From: Planctomycetaceae bacterium
Lineage (GTDB): Bacteria; Planctomycetota; Planctomycetia; Pirellulales; PALSA-1355
Assembly (NCBI GenBank): GCA_003153375.1
Contig: PLYM01000156.1
Coordinates: 1-64,000 of the forward strand
DNA: 64,000 nucleotides
Direction of reading: 5' to 3'
The notes below the pieces were generated by a model that was not told the origin of the DNA, made no database searches, and worked only from the letters and a program-made list of their open reading frames with translations. This document shows positions 17,365-25,152 of the stretch, piece by piece (the first letter of the stretch is position 1; each line of letters starts with the position of its first letter). Position numbers and translations under genes: made by a program.

Positions 17365-17437
17365 AGACTGAAGGCCGAAGGCTGAAGGGGGGAGCCGAAT
17401 TCTTTTCCTTCGGTCTTCGGCCTTCAGTCTTCAGCCT
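17358..17437. terminator. 23-bp perfect inverted repeat, bidirectional terminator
   Basis: The left arm (17358-17380) and right arm (17415-17437) are exact reverse complements, separated by 34 bases. The arms are built from the degenerate unit CTGAAG-ACTGAAGGC. The aminotransferase stop (TGA, 17362-17364) is in the left arm and the queF stop (17424-17426, minus strand) is in the right arm, so both coding regions run into the stem. The position between two convergent genes fits a bidirectional terminator. Confidence 0.7.
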
Positions 17438-17783
17438 GCGTACTCACCGTCACTTCCGTCGTAATGCCGCCGCGAGCCGTAAAGGCCGCGTGCAGGATCA
17501 GCCGTCTTGGCTCGAGCACGGCCACCAGATCGTCGAAAATGCGGTTGGTGACGTGCTCGTAGAAGATGCCTTCGTTGCGGAACTGTTGCAGGTAGAGCTT
17601 CAAGCTCTTGAGCTCCACGCAGCGGGCGGCCGGGCTGTAGGTGAACGTCAGCACGCCGAAGTCGGGCTGGCCGGTTTTCGGGCAGACGCTGGTGAATTCG
17701 GGACAGCGGATCTCGATCCGGTAGTCCCGTTGGGGGAACTGGTTGGGAAATGTTTCCAGAATCTCGCGGAATTTGTCGCTCAT
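17424..17783 (-). CDS. queF: NADPH-dependent preQ0 reductase (QueF)
   Basis: The 119-residue protein matches the short unimodular QueF type. It reduces the nitrile of 7-cyano-7-deazaguanine (preQ0) to preQ1 on the way to queuosine. The signature [15 protein letters not shown] carries the catalytic Cys at residue 34, and the downstream [21 protein letters not shown] segment contains the family's QueF motif and substrate Glu. ATG 17783 is chosen because AAAGGA lies 7 bases upstream; a GTG six codons earlier is less likely. It is divergent from queC-queE, with a shared 179-base promoter region containing a CACGCC-TCGT-GGCGTG hairpin at 17894-17909. Confidence 0.95.
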
Positions 17784-17962
17784 CGTCGGTCCTTTCGCCA
17801 CTCGGTCTGTTCTGGCATCATAGAATCAGACCGGCCAACTAGGATAGCCGAGCGGCGGAAACGCGGGAAAATCCACCCTGGCGGTTCCCTGCCCACGCCT
17901 CGTGGCGTGCGGATTCCACCGCGCCGGCAACTCGATTTCTTTTGCTCTCACTCGTTTGCAGC

Positions 17963-18664
17963 ATGTCAAAACCGGCAGTCATTTTGCTATCCGGCGGCCT
18001 CGATTCGGCCACGACAGCGGCCATTGCGCGCTCGCAAGGCTTCGAGTTGCACGCCCTGTCGTTCGACTATGGCCAGCGCCATCGGGGCGAGCTCGACGCG
18101 GCGCAAGCCGTGGGGCATAGCCTGGGCGTGCGGCGACACGTGACGCTGGCGATCGATCTCAGGCAGTTTGGCGCCAGTGCGTTGACCGCGGCCATCGACG
18201 TGCCCAAGGGGCGCAGCGACGCGGAGATGTCGGAGGGGATTCCGATCACCTATGTGCCGGCGCGCAATACCGTGTTTCTGTCGCTGGCGCTGGGCTATGC
18301 CGAGGTGCTGGGCGCGGCCGATATCTTCATCGGCGTCAACGCGGTCGATTACAGCGGCTATCCCGATTGCCGGCCCGAATACATCGCGGCCTTCGAACGA
18401 CTGGCCAACCTGGCCACCAAGGCGTCAGTCGAGGGGCGCTTGAAGTTCGAGATTCACACGCCGCTCATCTTGTGGAGCAAAGCCGAGATCATTCGCTGCG
18501 GCACGCGGCTGGGCGTCGACTATGGCTTGACGCGCAGTTGCTACGATCCCGATAGCTTGGGCGCTGCCTGCGGGGCCTGCGACTCGTGCTCGTTGCGGCT
18601 GAAGGGTTTTGCCGAGGCAGGCCTGACCGATCCGGCGCCGTACCGTGCGAAGGACGAAGGATGA
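17963..18664 (+). CDS. queC: 7-cyano-7-deazaguanine synthase (QueC)
   Basis: This 233-residue ATP-dependent enzyme converts 7-carboxy-7-deazaguanine to preQ0. The PP-loop ATPase motif [13 protein letters not shown] is at about residues 9-21, and FDYGQRH is present. The zinc site near the C-terminus is [19 protein letters not shown] (four cysteines). The start is ATG 17963 (MSKPAV); an in-frame upstream codon gives an unlikely extension. The TGA stop overlaps an ATG that opens a five-codon frame leading into queE. No queD is seen in the window. Confidence 0.96.
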
Positions 18665-18678
18665 AGGCGGAAGGATGA
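18661..18678 (+). other. Five-codon bridging frame between queC and queE
   Basis: An ATG at 18661 overlaps the queC stop (ATGA) and opens the frame M-K-A-E-G-stop, whose TGA overlaps the queE ATG at 18675 (ATGA). The sequence is a GAAGGATGAAGG-type direct repeat, so each ATG carries its own AAGG upstream. This would allow re-initiating ribosomes to pass from queC to queE. It is visible in the sequence; its use is an inference. Confidence 0.35.
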
Positions 18679-19361
18679 AGGTCGCCGAGATTTATCGCAG
18701 CGTGCAGGGCGAGGGTTTTTTGACGGGCGCCACCAGCACGTTCGTGCGCACCAGCGGCTGCAACCTGCGCTGCTGGTATTGCGACACGCCGCACACTTCC
18801 TGGATGCCCGAGGGCGAGGACCTGTCGGTTGACGAGATCCTGGCGCGCGTCGCCGAGTTGGATGCCGAGCACGTCGTCCTCACCGGCGGCGAGCCGATGC
18901 TGTTTGCCGAGCTGATCCCGTTATCGGCACGCTTGCGCAAGGCCGGCCGGCACGTCACGATCGAAACCGCGGGCACGCTGTACCTGCCGGTCACCTGCGA
19001 CCTGATGTCGCTCAGCCCCAAGCTGGCCAACTCGACCCCCAGCGAGGATCGCGCGGGACCGTGGAGCGACAGGCACCAGCGCACGCGGCACGCGCCGGAT
19101 GTCGTGCGCCGCCTGGTGAGCGAGTATGCCTATCAAGTGAAGTTCGTCGTTGGCAGCCCAGACGATTGTCGCGAAGTTGAAGAATATCTGCGAGCGATGC
19201 CCGAGATCGACCGCGAGCGGGCGATGCTGATGCCCGAGGGAATCGACTCGGAAGCGTTAGCTCGTCACGCCGAGTGGCTCGAAGTGTATTGTCATGAGCA
19301 CGCTTTGCGTTTCTGCCCGCGCCGTCAGATCGAATGGTTCGGGTACGTGCGCGGGACTTGA
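18675..19361 (+). CDS. queE: 7-carboxy-7-deazaguanine synthase (QueE), radical SAM
   Basis: This 228-residue radical SAM enzyme converts 6-carboxytetrahydropterin to 7-carboxy-7-deazaguanine. The 4Fe-4S motif CNLRCWYC (CxxxCxxC) follows YRSVQGEGFLTGATSTFVR near the N-terminus, and VVLTGGEPML is the SAM-binding GGEP motif. ATG 18675 begins MKVAEIYRS, where family homology starts, and GGCGGAAGG is immediately upstream. It is translationally close to queC and probably forms one operon with it. Confidence 0.95.
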   Translation: MKVAEIYRSVQGEGFLTGATSTFVRTSGCNLRCWYCDTPHTSWMPEGEDLSVDEILARVAELDAEHVVLTGGEPMLFAELIPLSARLRKAGRHVTIETAGTLYLPVTCDLMSLSPKLANSTPSEDRAGPWSDRHQRTRHAPDVVRRLVSEYAYQVKFVVGSPDDCREVEEYLRAMPEIDRERAMLMPEGIDSEALARHAEWLEVYCHEHALRFCPRRQIEWFGYVRGT

Positions 19362-20012: not shown

Positions 20013-20357
20013 ATGAGCGAGACCTTTATTCTGATCCCCGGCCGCACCAGCAAACAGGGCTGTGGCATCAGCGAAGGCAAGTTCACCGAGGGCTACCAGT
20101 CCGAAATCAACCTGTTGCAAGTTTCGCCCCGCGACATGCAGCGGCTCGCTCTGGCCGAAGGTGAACGGGTGCGGCTGACCAGTGAGACCGGCGCGATTGA
20201 AGTGGCCGTGACGGCCGCCAAAGGTGATGAACTGCCCCCAGGCCTGCTCTTCATCGCTTACGGCGACCTCTCCAGCCGATTAATGGGTGGCGATACCCAC
20301 GGCTCCGGCATGCCCACCAGCAAGGGGCTGGACGTGGTGTTGGAAAAGATCGGATGA
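20013..20357 (+). CDS. Formylmethanofuran dehydrogenase subunit D-like, molybdopterin-dinucleotide-binding
   Basis: The 114-residue protein corresponds to FwdD/FmdD: a single molybdopterin-dinucleotide-binding barrel that completes the pterin pocket of subunit B. Visible features are the N-terminal LIPGRTSKQGCGI, the SPRDMQRLALAEGERVRLTSETG segment and the terminal DTHGSGMPTSKGLDV motif, all in the order found in the archaeal subunit. It is the first gene of the D-B-A group and is separated from subunit B by 73 bases. Its presence argues for a pterin-containing complex. Confidence 0.85.
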   Translation: MSETFILIPGRTSKQGCGISEGKFTEGYQSEINLLQVSPRDMQRLALAEGERVRLTSETGAIEVAVTAAKGDELPPGLLFIAYGDLSSRLMGGDTHGSGMPTSKGLDVVLEKIG

Positions 20358-20430
20358 AATTCGCGGAATGTGGGCGGAAGGTATCTGGGCTGCTAGGGGA
20401 CAGAGCAACAGCTAAGCGAGTCAAACGACG

Positions 20431-21777
20431 ATGAGCATTGCCACCAAGAAAAATACCGCCCCCGATCCGTCGCTCAAGATCGTGCAGGATGCGACGTGTA
20501 CGTTCTGTGGATGCGTGTGCGATGATATCGATCTGTCGGTGAAGGACGATCACATCGTCGAGGCGAAGCGTGCGTGCGTGCTGGGCAAGTCCTGGTTCTT
20601 CAACCATCACACCGACACGCGGCCCAATTGCTTGATCTCGGGTCAGCCCGCCACGATCGCCGATGGCGTCGAGCGGGCGGCGCAGATCCTGGCCGGCGCC
20701 AAGTATCCGATCATCTACGGTCTGAGCGATACGACCTGCGAGGCGCAGCGCGTCGCGGTGGGCATCGGCGATTGGATCGGCGGCAACGTCGATACCACGA
20801 CCAGCGTCTGCCACGGGCCCTCGGGCATGGCCTTTCAAGGCGTGGGCGAGGTCACCTGCTCGCTGGGAGAAATTGCCAACCGGGGCGATCTGATTATTTT
20901 CTGGGGCTCGAACCCGGCCGAAAGCCATCCGCGGCATTTCACCAAGTACAGCCTGATGCCCAAGGGCATGTTTCTGCCCAATGGCCGCAAGGATCGAACC
21001 TGCGTGCTGGTCGACGTGCGCAAAACCAAAAGCGCCAAGGCGGCCGACATTTTCTTGCAGATCAAGCCGCGCAAGGATTTCGAGGCCCTGTGGGTGCTGC
21101 GGGCGCTGGCCCAGGGGCTAGAACTCGATGCGGCATCAATCGAGGACGAAACCGGCGTGCCGCTGTCGGCCTGGCAGGATCTAATGGACCGGATGAAACG
21201 GGCCAAGTTCGGCGTGATCTTGTTCGGCATGGGCCTGACCATGACGCGCGGCAAGCATCTCAACAGCGAAGCCGTGCTGGCGCTGGTGCGCGACATGAAC
21301 GCCTACACGCGGTTTGTGGCCAAGCCGATGCGGGGACACGGCAACGTGACCGGGGCAGATAACGTCGTGTCCTGGCAAACCGGCTACCCGTTCGGGGTCA
21401 ACTTGTCGCGCGGCTATCCGCGGTTCAATCCGGGGGAATACACGACGGCCGACACGCTGGCCCGCGGCGAGGCCGACGCGGCGATGATCATTGCCAGCGA
21501 TCCGATGGCCAATTTCAGCCAGGCTGCCCGCACCCGGCTGGCCGCGATTCCTTACATTGCGCTCGACCCCAAAGAGACCCCCACCACGCGTGCCGCGACC
21601 GTGGCCTTTACTACCGCGACCTACGGCATCAACACGCCGGGCACGGTGTATCGCATGGACGACGTGCCGATTCCGCTGCGGCCCGCCTTCGATTCGCCCC
21701 ACCCCAGCGACTTCGAAGTCCTTTCGCAACTGGAGCGCCGCGTCAAGCAACTCAAGGCGGCCGTGCGGATCGGATGA
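20431..21777 (+). CDS. fwdB: Formylmethanofuran dehydrogenase subunit B
   Basis: The 448-residue catalytic subunit belongs to the molybdopterin oxidoreductase family. In the archaeal enzyme this subunit handles CO2/formate redox chemistry; in bacteria it belongs to the tetrahydromethanopterin-linked C1 pathway. The N-terminal iron-sulfur cysteines are present (C23, C26, C30 and C49 in TCTFCGCVCDD and RACVLG). The metal-ligand cysteine position is also kept (C127 in TTSVCHGPSG). Other conserved segments are WGSNPAESHPRH, DVRKTKSAK, MRGHGNVTGADNV and ASDPMANF. Keeping these ligands is notable because, as I recall, the FhcB subunit of Methylorubrum has lost its redox ligands. Its neighbours are subunits D and A. 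Confidence 0.93.
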   Translation: MSIATKKNTAPDPSLKIVQDATCTFCGCVCDDIDLSVKDDHIVEAKRACVLGKSWFFNHHTDTRPNCLISGQPATIADGVERAAQILAGAKYPIIYGLSDTTCEAQRVAVGIGDWIGGNVDTTTSVCHGPSGMAFQGVGEVTCSLGEIANRGDLIIFWGSNPAESHPRHFTKYSLMPKGMFLPNGRKDRTCVLVDVRKTKSAKAADIFLQIKPRKDFEALWVLRALAQGLELDAASIEDETGVPLSAWQDLMDRMKRAKFGVILFGMGLTMTRGKHLNSEAVLALVRDMNAYTRFVAKPMRGHGNVTGADNVVSWQTGYPFGVNLSRGYPRFNPGEYTTADTLARGEADAAMIIASDPMANFSQAARTRLAAIPYIALDPKETPTTRAATVAFTTATYGINTPGTVYRMDDVPIPLRPAFDSPHPSDFEVLSQLERRVKQLKAAVRIG

Positions 21778-21820
21778 GATCGCTCGCAACCTCTTCGTCT
21801 CCCGCGTTCATTTTGAGTGC

Positions 21821-21839
21821 CATGGGCGTTCCGCCCGTG
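21821..21839. repeat. GC-rich hairpin before subunit A
   Basis: CATGGGCG, a TTC loop and CGCCCGTG form an 8-bp stem with one G-U pair, 63 bases before the subunit A start. A related GCCCGTGG string follows at about 21870. It may be a member of a short intergenic repeat family; no function is evident. Confidence 0.35.
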
Positions 21840-21901
21840 CTGTTCCCCCTCGCAACCGTTCACGAGCGTGACGCCCGTGGCGCCCACGATCCAAACGTTT
21901 C

Positions 21902-23566
21902 ATGACTAGCTCCCTTTTCAAAATCGCCGGCGGAACGGTCTACGACCCCACGAACGGCGTCGACGGGCAGGTGCGCGATCTGTGGATTGCCGACGGCAGG
22001 ATCGTCGCCGCGCCGACGGATCCGACGGTGCGGCCCGAGCGCACGCTGGACGCTTCGGGCATGGTCGTGATGCCCGGTGGCATCGACATGCACTGCCACA
22101 TCGCGGGTCCCAAGGTCAACGTGGCGCGCAAGATGCGTCCCGAGGAGAAGCGCGTGGCCGAGAAGGTCATGCGCACCGCCACCACGCACAGCGGCACGAT
22201 GGGCAGCGTGCCCAGCACGTTTGCCACCGGCTATAAGTACGCCGGGATGGGCTATACCACGGCCTTCGACGCCGCGATTCCGCCGCTGGCAGCCCGCCAC
22301 GTCCACGAGGAATTCGACGACACGCCGTGCATCGACAAGGGCTTTTATGTCCTGGTGGGCAACAACCACTACATCATGCGGGCCATCCAGGAGCAGGAGC
22401 CCGAGCGGCTGAAGGCTTTCTTGGGCTGGCTGCTGTCGGCGGCCAAGGGGTATGCGCCCAAGATCGTCAATCCGGGTGGAGTCGAAGTTTGGAAGCAGCA
22501 CCAAGGTGGCAACGTCCATTCGCTCGATTCGGTGGTCGAGCACTTTGACGTCACCCCCCGCCAGATCATCCGCGGCATCGCCCTCGCTGCTGAAGAGCTG
22601 AAGCTGCCGCACCGGATGCACATCCATGCCAACAACCTGGGTCTGCCGGGCAACTGGACGACGACGCTGGAAACGATGAAGGCGCTGGAAGGCCATGGCG
22701 GGCACCTGACGCACATTCAGTTTCACAGTTACGGCGGCGGCGATGGCGACGAGGATACGTTCAACTCCAAGGCCCGCGAATTGGCCGAGTACGTGAACAG
22801 CCACCCGAACATCACGATCGACGTGGGTCAGGTGATGTTCGGCAAGACCACGAGCATGACCGGCGACGGGCCATTGGGTTACTACCTGAGCAACGTCTAC
22901 AAATCGAAATGGTTCTCCTCCGACACCGAGATGGAGGCCGGCTGCGGCATCGCGCCAATCGAATATAAAAACAAAAGCCTGATTCACTCGCTGCAATGGG
23001 CCATTGGGCTCGAGTGGTATCTGATGGTCGAGGACCCCTGGCGCGTGGTGATGAGCACCGACCATCCGAACGGCGGCTCGTTCATGGCCTATCCGCAGAT
23101 CGTGAGGCTGCTGATGGACCGCACCTGGCGCAATGACGTGCTCAAGACCGTCAATCCGCTGGTCCTTGAGCGATCCTCGCTGGGCGACCTGGACCGCGAG
23201 TATACGCTCAACGAGATTTGCATCATCACCCGAGCGGGCCCGGCCAAGATCCTGGGCCTCAAGCACAAGGGGCACCTGGGCGTTGGCGCCGACGCCGACA
23301 TCACGATCTACACGCCCCACGACAACAAAGAGGTGATGTTCGAGCTGCCGCGCTATGTGATCAAGGCTGGCCAGATGATCGTCGAACTGGGCGAAATTCG
23401 CGACCCCGTGCGCGGCAAGACGCTGCACGTTTCGCCCGACTACGACCACGGCGTCGAGGCCGACATCGCCGACTGGTTCGAAAAGTACTATTCCATTCGC
23501 TTCCGCAACTATCCGGTCACCGAAGACTACATGCACGAGCACGAGACGATCGCGTGCGAAGAATAG
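21902..23566 (+). CDS. fwdA: Formylmethanofuran dehydrogenase subunit A, amidohydrolase
   Basis: The 554-residue metal-dependent amidohydrolase is the subunit that interconverts formate and formyl-methanofuran. The metal motif GGIDMHCHIAGPK has H64 and H66, and the APKIVNPGG segment holds the lysine expected to be carboxylated. The later STDHPNGGSF segment supplies the catalytic Asp and His. Length and motif order agree with archaeal FwdA and bacterial FhcA. It follows subunit B by 124 bases. Subunit C lies beyond an opposite-strand mobA gene. No formyltransferase, cyclohydrolase or methylene-tetrahydromethanopterin dehydrogenase is present, so the rest of the pathway must be elsewhere. Confidence 0.95.
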   Translation: MTSSLFKIAGGTVYDPTNGVDGQVRDLWIADGRIVAAPTDPTVRPERTLDASGMVVMPGGIDMHCHIAGPKVNVARKMRPEEKRVAEKVMRTATTHSGTMGSVPSTFATGYKYAGMGYTTAFDAAIPPLAARHVHEEFDDTPCIDKGFYVLVGNNHYIMRAIQEQEPERLKAFLGWLLSAAKGYAPKIVNPGGVEVWKQHQGGNVHSLDSVVEHFDVTPRQIIRGIALAAEELKLPHRMHIHANNLGLPGNWTTTLETMKALEGHGGHLTHIQFHSYGGGDGDEDTFNSKARELAEYVNSHPNITIDVGQVMFGKTTSMTGDGPLGYYLSNVYKSKWFSSDTEMEAGCGIAPIEYKNKSLIHSLQWAIGLEWYLMVEDPWRVVMSTDHPNGGSFMAYPQIVRLLMDRTWRNDVLKTVNPLVLERSSLGDLDREYTLNEICIITRAGPAKILGLKHKGHLGVGADADITIYTPHDNKEVMFELPRYVIKAGQMIVELGEIRDPVRGKTLHVSPDYDHGVEADIADWFEKYYSIRFRNYPVTEDYMHEHETIACEE

Positions 23567-23574
23567 GCAGGAGC

Positions 23575-24219
23575 TTAGGAAGTTGGCTTGGCGAACAGTT
23601 TGATGAAGTCTGGTGGAGGGGTGAACCCGGCTTGGGCCAGGGCAGCCAAATAGTCGGCCGGATGGTTCAGGTTTTTCAGCGTGTCGAGACGCGGATCGAC
23701 GTCGACGAGTTCGCTTTCCTCGACGCGGCGGGTGGAGACGATATCAAACAGATAGGCGGGACGCAGGCGGTTCGTGGCCAGGAGCTCGTTGACCACGTCG
23801 ACCACGCCGCGGCGATAGACGGCAGCCAGCGGATGGTGATAGCCCCCGCTCACCGGCACCGCCGCGCGATAATCGCCGAGCAGCTCGAATATCCGTCGCA
23901 CGAAGGCCGGCACCATCAGCGGCACGTCGCAGCTTGTGGCATACGCGGCTTCAACGTCTTCTCCGAGCGCAGCCAGCCCAGCCGACAGTCCCTCCAGCGG
24001 GCCGCGCTCGGGATGCAGATCACGGGCGACGATCACGCCGGCGGGCAGGGCGGGCAGCTCCTGTCCGGCGGCGGCCACGACTACAATTGGCTGGCACGCT
24101 TCAGCCAGCAATCGCACAATCCGCTCGAGCATCAACTCGGGACCAAAGGGCAGCGCCAGCTTGGCCGTGCCCATCCGGCTGCTCCGCCCGCCGCACAAGA
24201 TGATGCCGCCTGTTTGCAT
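23575..24219 (-). CDS. mobA: Molybdenum cofactor guanylyltransferase (MobA)
   Basis: The 214-residue nucleotidyltransferase attaches GMP to molybdopterin, making the dinucleotide form. The N-terminal GTP-binding signature GIILCGGRSSRMGTAKLAL is intact, followed by RDLHPERGPLEGLSAGLAAL and the metal-binding TSCDVPLM. It sits antisense between subunits A and C of formylmethanofuran dehydrogenase. The location suggests that it supplies the pterin dinucleotide for that enzyme, which is an inference from context. The stop lies 8 bases from the subunit A stop. Confidence 0.93.
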   Translation of the reverse strand: MQTGGIILCGGRSSRMGTAKLALPFGPELMLERIVRLLAEACQPIVVVAAAGQELPALPAGVIVARDLHPERGPLEGLSAGLAALGEDVEAAYATSCDVPLMVPAFVRRIFELLGDYRAAVPVSGGYHHPLAAVYRRGVVDVVNELLATNRLRPAYLFDIVSTRRVEESELVDVDPRLDTLKNLNHPADYLAALAQAGFTPPPDFIKLFAKPTS

Positions 24220-24324
24220 CGTTCGACACCTTGCCTATTCCATCACCTGGGGCTCGATTATACTCGACGCGCCGCGTGGAAAGCGCGGCCTTCGCATCTT
24301 CCGCCTCCTACGTTCCCACCCGCC

Positions 24325-25152
24325 ATGCTCCGACTCGTCTATCAAGGTCAAACCAGCGTGCCCGTCGAGGTCGAAGGGTTCGTACCGCAGACGATCCGCG
24401 CGATGTCGCTGGCCGAGATCGAGCGCTTCGAGGTGTTTCACGGCAACAAGAAGCGGCCGCTGGCCGATTTCTTCGCCGTCAGCGGCAGCGCGGCCGATGA
24501 GCGGATCGAGTTCGAAGGCCAACTGGCTGGGGTACACTGGATCGGCGCGGGCATGTCCTCCGGCTCGATCCATGTCAGTGGCGATGCCGGCCGGCACCTG
24601 GGCAGCGAGATGAGCGGCGGCGAGATTCACGTCGCGGGCACTGCCGGTGATTGGGTCGGCGGCGAAATGAAGGGGGGGCTGATCCACGTGCGCGGCCGGG
24701 CGGGCCATCTGATCGGCTCGGCCTATCGCGGCAGCCGGCACGGCATGACCGGCGGCACGATTCTGATCGGCGGCGAAGTCGGCAACGAAATCGGCCACAC
24801 CATGCGCCGCGGGCTGCTGGTCGTTGGTGGCGGCTGCGGCGATTTCGTGGGCCTCAATATGATCGCCGGCACGATCCTGGTCTTTGGCGAGTGCGGCATC
24901 CGTCCCGCCCCGGGCATGCGCCGCGGCACGATCGGCCTGTTTGGCAGCCCCGCGCCCAAGTTGCTGCCCACCTTCCGCGCCGGCAGTTGCGACAAGCCGC
25001 TGGTGTTGCAACTGTTGTTTCGCGAGCTGCGCCGTCTCGATTTTCACTTCGACGACGCGCTCGTCAACGCCAACTACCGCATGTACCACGGCGACATGGT
25101 GACTCTTGGACGCGGCGAGTTGCTGGTGCCGGAAGGAGTGGTTAGTGGTTAG
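24325..25152 (+). CDS. fwdC: Formylmethanofuran dehydrogenase subunit C
   Basis: The 275-residue protein is almost entirely a right-handed beta-helix built from repeated G-x-x-G-x-x-x-G turns (GDAGRHLGSEMSGG, GTAGDWVGGEMKGG, GRAGHLIGSAYRG, GEVGNEIGHTMRRG), the fold shared with the glutamate synthase alpha C-terminal domain. It is a structural subunit of the dehydrogenase complex. The ATG at 24325 starts MLRLVYQGQ, where the family begins. It is separated from subunit A by the antisense mobA gene, so it probably has its own promoter within 24220-24324. A short GTGGTTAGTGGTTAGTGG-type repeat lies at and after its stop. Confidence 0.94.
   Translation: MLRLVYQGQTSVPVEVEGFVPQTIRAMSLAEIERFEVFHGNKKRPLADFFAVSGSAADERIEFEGQLAGVHWIGAGMSSGSIHVSGDAGRHLGSEMSGGEIHVAGTAGDWVGGEMKGGLIHVRGRAGHLIGSAYRGSRHGMTGGTILIGGEVGNEIGHTMRRGLLVVGGGCGDFVGLNMIAGTILVFGECGIRPAPGMRRGTIGLFGSPAPKLLPTFRAGSCDKPLVLQLLFRELRRLDFHFDDALVNANYRMYHGDMVTLGRGELLVPEGVVSG

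Follow-up and report, generated by a model that had tools for sequence, protein, structure and literature searches.

The window analysed here is a stretch of 64,000 nucleotides (positions 1 to 64,000 of the forward strand of contig PLYM01000156.1, assembly GCA_003153375.1, from a Planctomycetaceae bacterium), and within it lies a set of genes, fwdDBA-(mobA)-fwdC, related to those encoding the formylmethanofuran dehydrogenase of Archaea (Fwd/Fmd). One-carbon (C1) oxidation linked to tetrahydromethanopterin (H4MPT) in bacteria is usually drawn with the homologous formyltransferase/hydrolase complex (Fhc), in which the B subunit, FhcB, is metal-free and formate is the end product. A sequence-only reading of the window had suggested that the planctomycete complex may instead be a genuine redox enzyme.

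The first gene, fwdD (20013-20357, plus strand), encodes a separate molybdopterin-dinucleotide-binding subunit of 114 amino acids, which is matched by PF01568 (E 2.6e-10), by NF042908 (E 1.4e-16, with a score below the cut-off of that model), and by the solved archaeal FwdD proteins 2ki8 (E 1.5e-15), 8rja, 9sfi, and 5t5i. It is followed on the same strand by fwdB (20431-21777), whose 448-residue product is the predicted catalytic Mo/W and [4Fe-4S] subunit (TIGR03129, 497 bits; cut-off 328), and by fwdA (21902-23566), which encodes the amidohydrolase subunit (TIGR03121, 756 bits; cut-off 393) and aligns with 5t5i_A. A mobA-like gene for a molybdenum cofactor guanylyltransferase lies on the minus strand (23575-24219; PF12804, E 4.4e-32; MobA models, E 3.5e-33 to 5e-20, all below cut-off), and the locus ends with fwdC (24325-25152, plus strand), which encodes the GXGXG-repeat subunit (TIGR03122, 257 bits; cut-off 131) and matches archaeal FwdC and 6s6y_C. 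Both the separate subunit D gene and the embedded mobA gene that the sequence-only reading had reported were found. Differences between the four fwd frames and those of relatives fall mostly at third codon positions, and the locus is not a chance observation. The source genome holds one copy of FwdB.

Active-site residues and the B-subunit tree

FwdB can be aligned over its full length with archaeal FwdB (E about 1e-114), and archaeal residue numbers were obtained by counting along the 5t5i row of the alignment. The four presumptive [4Fe-4S] ligands, C23 (codon 20497-20499), C26 (20506-20508), C30 (20518-20520), and C49 (20575-20577), align with C9, C12, C16, and C35 of 5t5i_B, whilst the presumptive Mo/W ligand C127 and its neighbour H128 (20809-20814) align with C118 and H119. 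Further downstream, R301-G-H303-G-N305 is encoded at 21331-21345 within the motif PMRGHGNVTG, and R301 aligns with R288 of 5t5i_B. We compared the protein with a set of 80 named relatives (73-82% identity, nearly all titled Planctomycetota); C23, C26, C30, C49, C127, H128, and R301 are invariant in all 81 sequences, so that the cysteines picked out by the sequence-only reading, including C127 in SVCHGPS, stand where it had placed them. Both H303 and N305 are found throughout archaeal FwdB, and Fhc-like copies have lost them. In FwdA, the metal-site residues H64, H66, K187, H242, and D387 are intact relative to 5t5i_A and invariant in 40 planctomycete FwdA proteins; K187 occupies the carboxylated-lysine position, and the gate lysine, K71, is also kept. 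The roles given to these FwdA residues are in part those presumed for the family.

The four N-terminal cysteines were considered as a means of telling Fwd from Fhc and had to be rejected, since they persist in FhcB-like proteins that lack the metal ligand, both in the Planctomycetota and in three Proteobacteria. In the latter (three FhcB proteins encoded on plasmids), all four cysteines are kept and the ligand position is A, A, or G. The sequence-only reading had stated that FhcB of Methylorubrum has lost these ligands, and this agrees with 6s6y_B (361 amino acids), which aligns weakly and begins opposite about residue 58 of an FhcB-like query; from this start we conclude that the N-terminal Fe-S domain is missing. 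That reading had also named shared cysteines in FhcB as grounds for abandoning the redox assignment: sharing is found for the four N-terminal cysteines and not for the metal ligand, so the part of its argument built on the N-terminal cysteines fails. What does tell the two types of B subunit apart is the ligand (Cys or selenocysteine, Sec) together with the residues around it, the R301-H303-N305 set, and the presence of FwdD as a separate subunit.

Support for a redox assignment comes from a tree of 64 rows (the archaeal rows being copied from HMMER output), in which archaeal FwdB and the planctomycete redox-type proteins, with Cys or with Sec, stand apart from every Fhc-like protein with a support of 100/99. 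The planctomycete redox-type set is itself supported at 96/94. As the tree is unrooted and its outgroups are long branches, we make no rooted statement on the origin of FwdB.

Ligand classes and FwdD across the Planctomycetota

The loci of the 80 relatives share a common gene order, with a fwdD match in 64 of them, nearly always just upstream of fwdB, and with mobA between fwdA and fwdC in many. We also sampled 392 genomes of the phylum and followed up the 44 with the stronger FwdB/FhcB matches. Every B protein examined in this set has the four N-terminal cysteines, and the proteins fall into four classes by their ligand. Eight genomes have Cys in SVCHGP, as in the FwdB of the window. In nine others (L108-L116), a single in-frame TGA lies in SLUHGPT, exactly at the ligand codon. 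In a third class the residue is Cys, Gly, or Ser, the sequence around it has changed, and H303 and N305 are lost, whilst in the fourth the ligand position is deleted or otherwise replaced. Several FhcB-like proteins (L125-L129, L153, L155, L157, and L158) have lost the ligand region (SVCH) by deletion and retain the four N-terminal cysteines; in these, an Fe-S cluster may persist without a Mo/W site.

FwdD encoded by a small open reading frame was found in all 17 genomes with a Cys-type (SVCHGP) or Sec-type FwdB. The remaining 27 have none, and their FwdD matches are confined to the C-terminal domains of large oxidoreductases. Seven of the 17 hold a second B copy (L136 7126-8403, L140, L142, L144, L145, L165, and L166) that keeps the four Fe-S cysteines and the ligand Cys and has lost H303 and N305; no A, C, or ftr gene was seen beside the five copies that were viewed with wide flanks. 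In a sample of 398 genomes of the class, FwdD was found at E < 1e-20 in 162 (~40%, tallied by hand), which contradicts the published statement that fwdD is absent from Planctomycetes (Chistoserdova, 2016; PMC5020050).

The TGA at the ligand codon very probably encodes selenocysteine, because SelB is above its cut-off in 9/9 of the TGA genomes (4/35 among the others) and each of the nine TGA codons is followed by a hairpin. Folding z-scores for this candidate selenocysteine insertion sequence are weak (-0.5 to -2.7); better evidence lies in the position that the hairpins share, to which coding constraint may contribute. Cys-type and Sec-type FwdB are 55-59% identical, and the predicted Sec form, of which one case had been published, extends across several planctomycete families.

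Cofactor supply, C1 pathway, and competing explanations

Genes for molybdenum cofactor synthesis occur in the 80 relative loci, with moeA in 26, moaD in 27 (both named by sequence inspection, not by family search), and mobA in 19; many of the contigs end close by. The source genome carries moaA and moaE outside the fwd locus, which excludes an absence of molybdopterin synthesis, the second ground on which the sequence-only reading would have been given up. The pathway genes that it had proposed to look for, ftr, mch, mtd, and fae, were likewise found, scattered on contigs other than that of the fwd locus. There, mch is followed by an MptN-like ligase gene, fae adjoins the gene for methylene-H4MPT dehydrogenase, and a homolog of RFAP synthase scores just below its cut-off. 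In L001 (1480-3021), the gene directly after ftr resembles, on inspection, that of a 5-formyltetrahydrofolate cyclo-ligase, which could connect the two C1 carriers, and in L015 (6052-7083), beside mtd and fae, a MsrP/sulfite-oxidase-like domain is fused to pentapeptide repeats, possibly representing another molybdoenzyme. Immediately upstream of the fwd genes, at 17424-19361, are genes that resemble queF, queC, and queE, again judged by inspection.

Based on the tree placement on the archaeal side, FwdD, the active-site His and Arg, the Sec-type relatives with SelB, and the linkage to moeA, moaD, and mobA, we judge that fwdDBA-(mobA)-fwdC encodes a genuine Mo- or W-dependent formylmethanofuran (or methylofuran) dehydrogenase, with a probability of roughly 0.8. 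Several points weigh against this assignment. Beside the 80 Cys-type and 8 Sec-type loci, looking at locus neighbourhoods only, no FwdF/FwdG, ferredoxin, F420-reductase, or NuoEF-like partner is conserved. FwdD and the ligand go together along a single clade, so that their joint occurrences are not independent, and a Fisher value for the association should not be taken as a count of independent events. Archaeal Fwd complexes are enzymes of anaerobes, and the source organism, with two COX1 genes for heme-copper oxidases, can probably respire oxygen. In favour of the assignment, no protein of the source genome scores above a formate dehydrogenase cut-off, in a search that did not include the metal-free NAD formate dehydrogenase; of the three PF00384 matches, one is a YdeP-type protein, one an unassigned molybdopterin oxidoreductase, and one, judging by its neighbours, NuoG.

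The lack of an electron partner at the locus also speaks for the complex being in practice an Fhc, with the B subunit as a scaffold and formate as the sole release. The A, B, and C families and the H4MPT pathway genes are the same as in methylotrophs, and the N-terminal cysteines, kept even by ligand-less proteins, prove nothing. However, a scaffold would not maintain C127, H128, R301-H303-N305, and FwdD, all of which are retained, nor would it maintain Sec at the ligand in relatives and cofactor genes clustered at the locus, and we regard this explanation as quite improbable. It is also unlikely that a genuine Mo/W enzyme works chiefly as a reductase that fixes CO2 as formyl-H4MPT to supply biosynthesis. 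Archaeal homologs do reduce CO2, and in principle the A and B sites can each work in both directions (PMC11656701), but fae beside the methylene-H4MPT dehydrogenase gene points to formaldehyde as the input, heme-copper oxidases are present, and the reduction of CO2 requires a donor near -0.5 V (PMC11656701), for which no source was seen at the locus. That the genes are contaminants, or arrived recently by an isolated transfer, might be suspected from the draft state of the assembly (291 contigs, estimated contamination 4.18%); nevertheless, the locus sits inside a 109-kb contig, the nearest relatives are nearly all planctomycetes that share its gene order, and the class-wide distribution of FwdD refutes the idea, to which we give almost no weight.

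Returning to the dehydrogenase assignment, the genes, the ligands, FwdD, the tree placement, and the pathway genes are read directly from the sequences. The cofactor, the activity, and the internal transfer of formate are predictions, for which we propose the following scheme. FwdB and FwdD would hold a bis-pterin-dinucleotide Mo/W centre, with C127 as ligand, beside a [4Fe-4S] cluster on C23, C26, C30, and C49; the metal site of FwdA would hydrolyse or condense the N-formyl bond, FwdC would be the shared structural subunit, and the locus-encoded MobA probably supplies the dinucleotide cofactor. Formaldehyde would be converted via methylene-, methenyl-, and formyl-H4MPT (Fae, Mtd, and Mch) to formyl-methanofuran (Ftr), from which FwdA would release formate for oxidation by FwdB to CO2 and two low-potential electrons. 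Since FwdB would itself oxidise formate to CO2, a separate formate dehydrogenase would be unnecessary. We consider the oxidative direction reasonably likely, and the source bacterium can probably oxidise C1 units fully to CO2 via this enzyme.

Such a built-in activity, if present, would explain how planctomycetes that have the H4MPT pathway and lack a formate dehydrogenase reach CO2. A metagenome study found formate dehydrogenase in none of its Planctomycetota, yet reported H4MPT-pathway gene reads for Rhodopirellula sp. NAT69 (PMC9874027), and the contig of that organism in our set (L067) carries D, B, A, mobA, and C genes with the same ligand motif and C127. An active complex would also offer a Mo/W Fwd from oxygen-respiring bacteria for study. 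More broadly, we lean somewhat towards the view that a large part of the planctomycete class uses an archaeal-type Fwd in the oxidative direction, its integral formate dehydrogenase carrying formaldehyde carbon through to CO2, and that some of these genomes hold a second, FwdD-less B paralog as well; the phylum would then present a graded series, from redox FwdB to ligand-less scaffold, as a living record of the origin of Fhc.

Comparison with known systems

A redox-type bacterial Fwd has precedents in Rhodopirellula P2 and in the Hakuba actinobacteria, and bacterial FwdB has been described in a survey as acquired from Archaea (PMC10100899). What we did not find stated in the literature searched is the joint pattern of FwdD, ligand, and SelB, its class-wide spread, or the linkage to molybdenum cofactor genes. 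The planctomycete complex shares with archaeal Fwd/Fmd (PDB 5t5i, 8rja, 9sfi, 9sw6, and 7bkb) the subunits A-D, the four Fe-S cysteines, the intact amidohydrolase site, and a metal ligand, Cys or Sec, accompanied by the His and the Arg. It differs in its bacterial host with heme-copper oxidases, in having no FwdF/FwdG or electron module at the locus, and in the dispersal of ftr, mch, mtd, and fae over other contigs.

One of the closest bacterial counterparts is the fmdDBAC locus of Rhodopirellula P2, for which Kim et al. (2016) described a Sec-containing fmdB in the order D-B-A-C, together with glycine variants in three planctomycetes (PMC4807772). The two loci share this order and a redox-type B subunit, and P2 belongs to the sister set in our tree; P2 has Sec as the ligand, whereas the locus studied here has Cys, and mobA between A and C. 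The Hakuba actinobacteria (fwdDBA-ftr-fwdC; PMC7325909) likewise have a bacterial FwdB with an Fe-S domain and an equivalent of Cys118, a FwdD, and no FwdFG, but they belong to another phylum, hold ftr inside the operon, and are reported without methanopterin-biosynthesis genes. Fhc of Methylorubrum extorquens (PDB 6s6y) is built from homologs of A, B, and C and belongs to the same H4MPT pathway; its FhcB, in contrast, has no Fe-S domain and, according to the literature, no metal cofactor (PMC10100899). Proteobacterial Fhc loci are arranged B-A-fhcD-C, with ftr (fhcD) in the operon and no fwdD, whereas the planctomycete locus has the C127 ligand and FwdD, and ftr lies on another contig.

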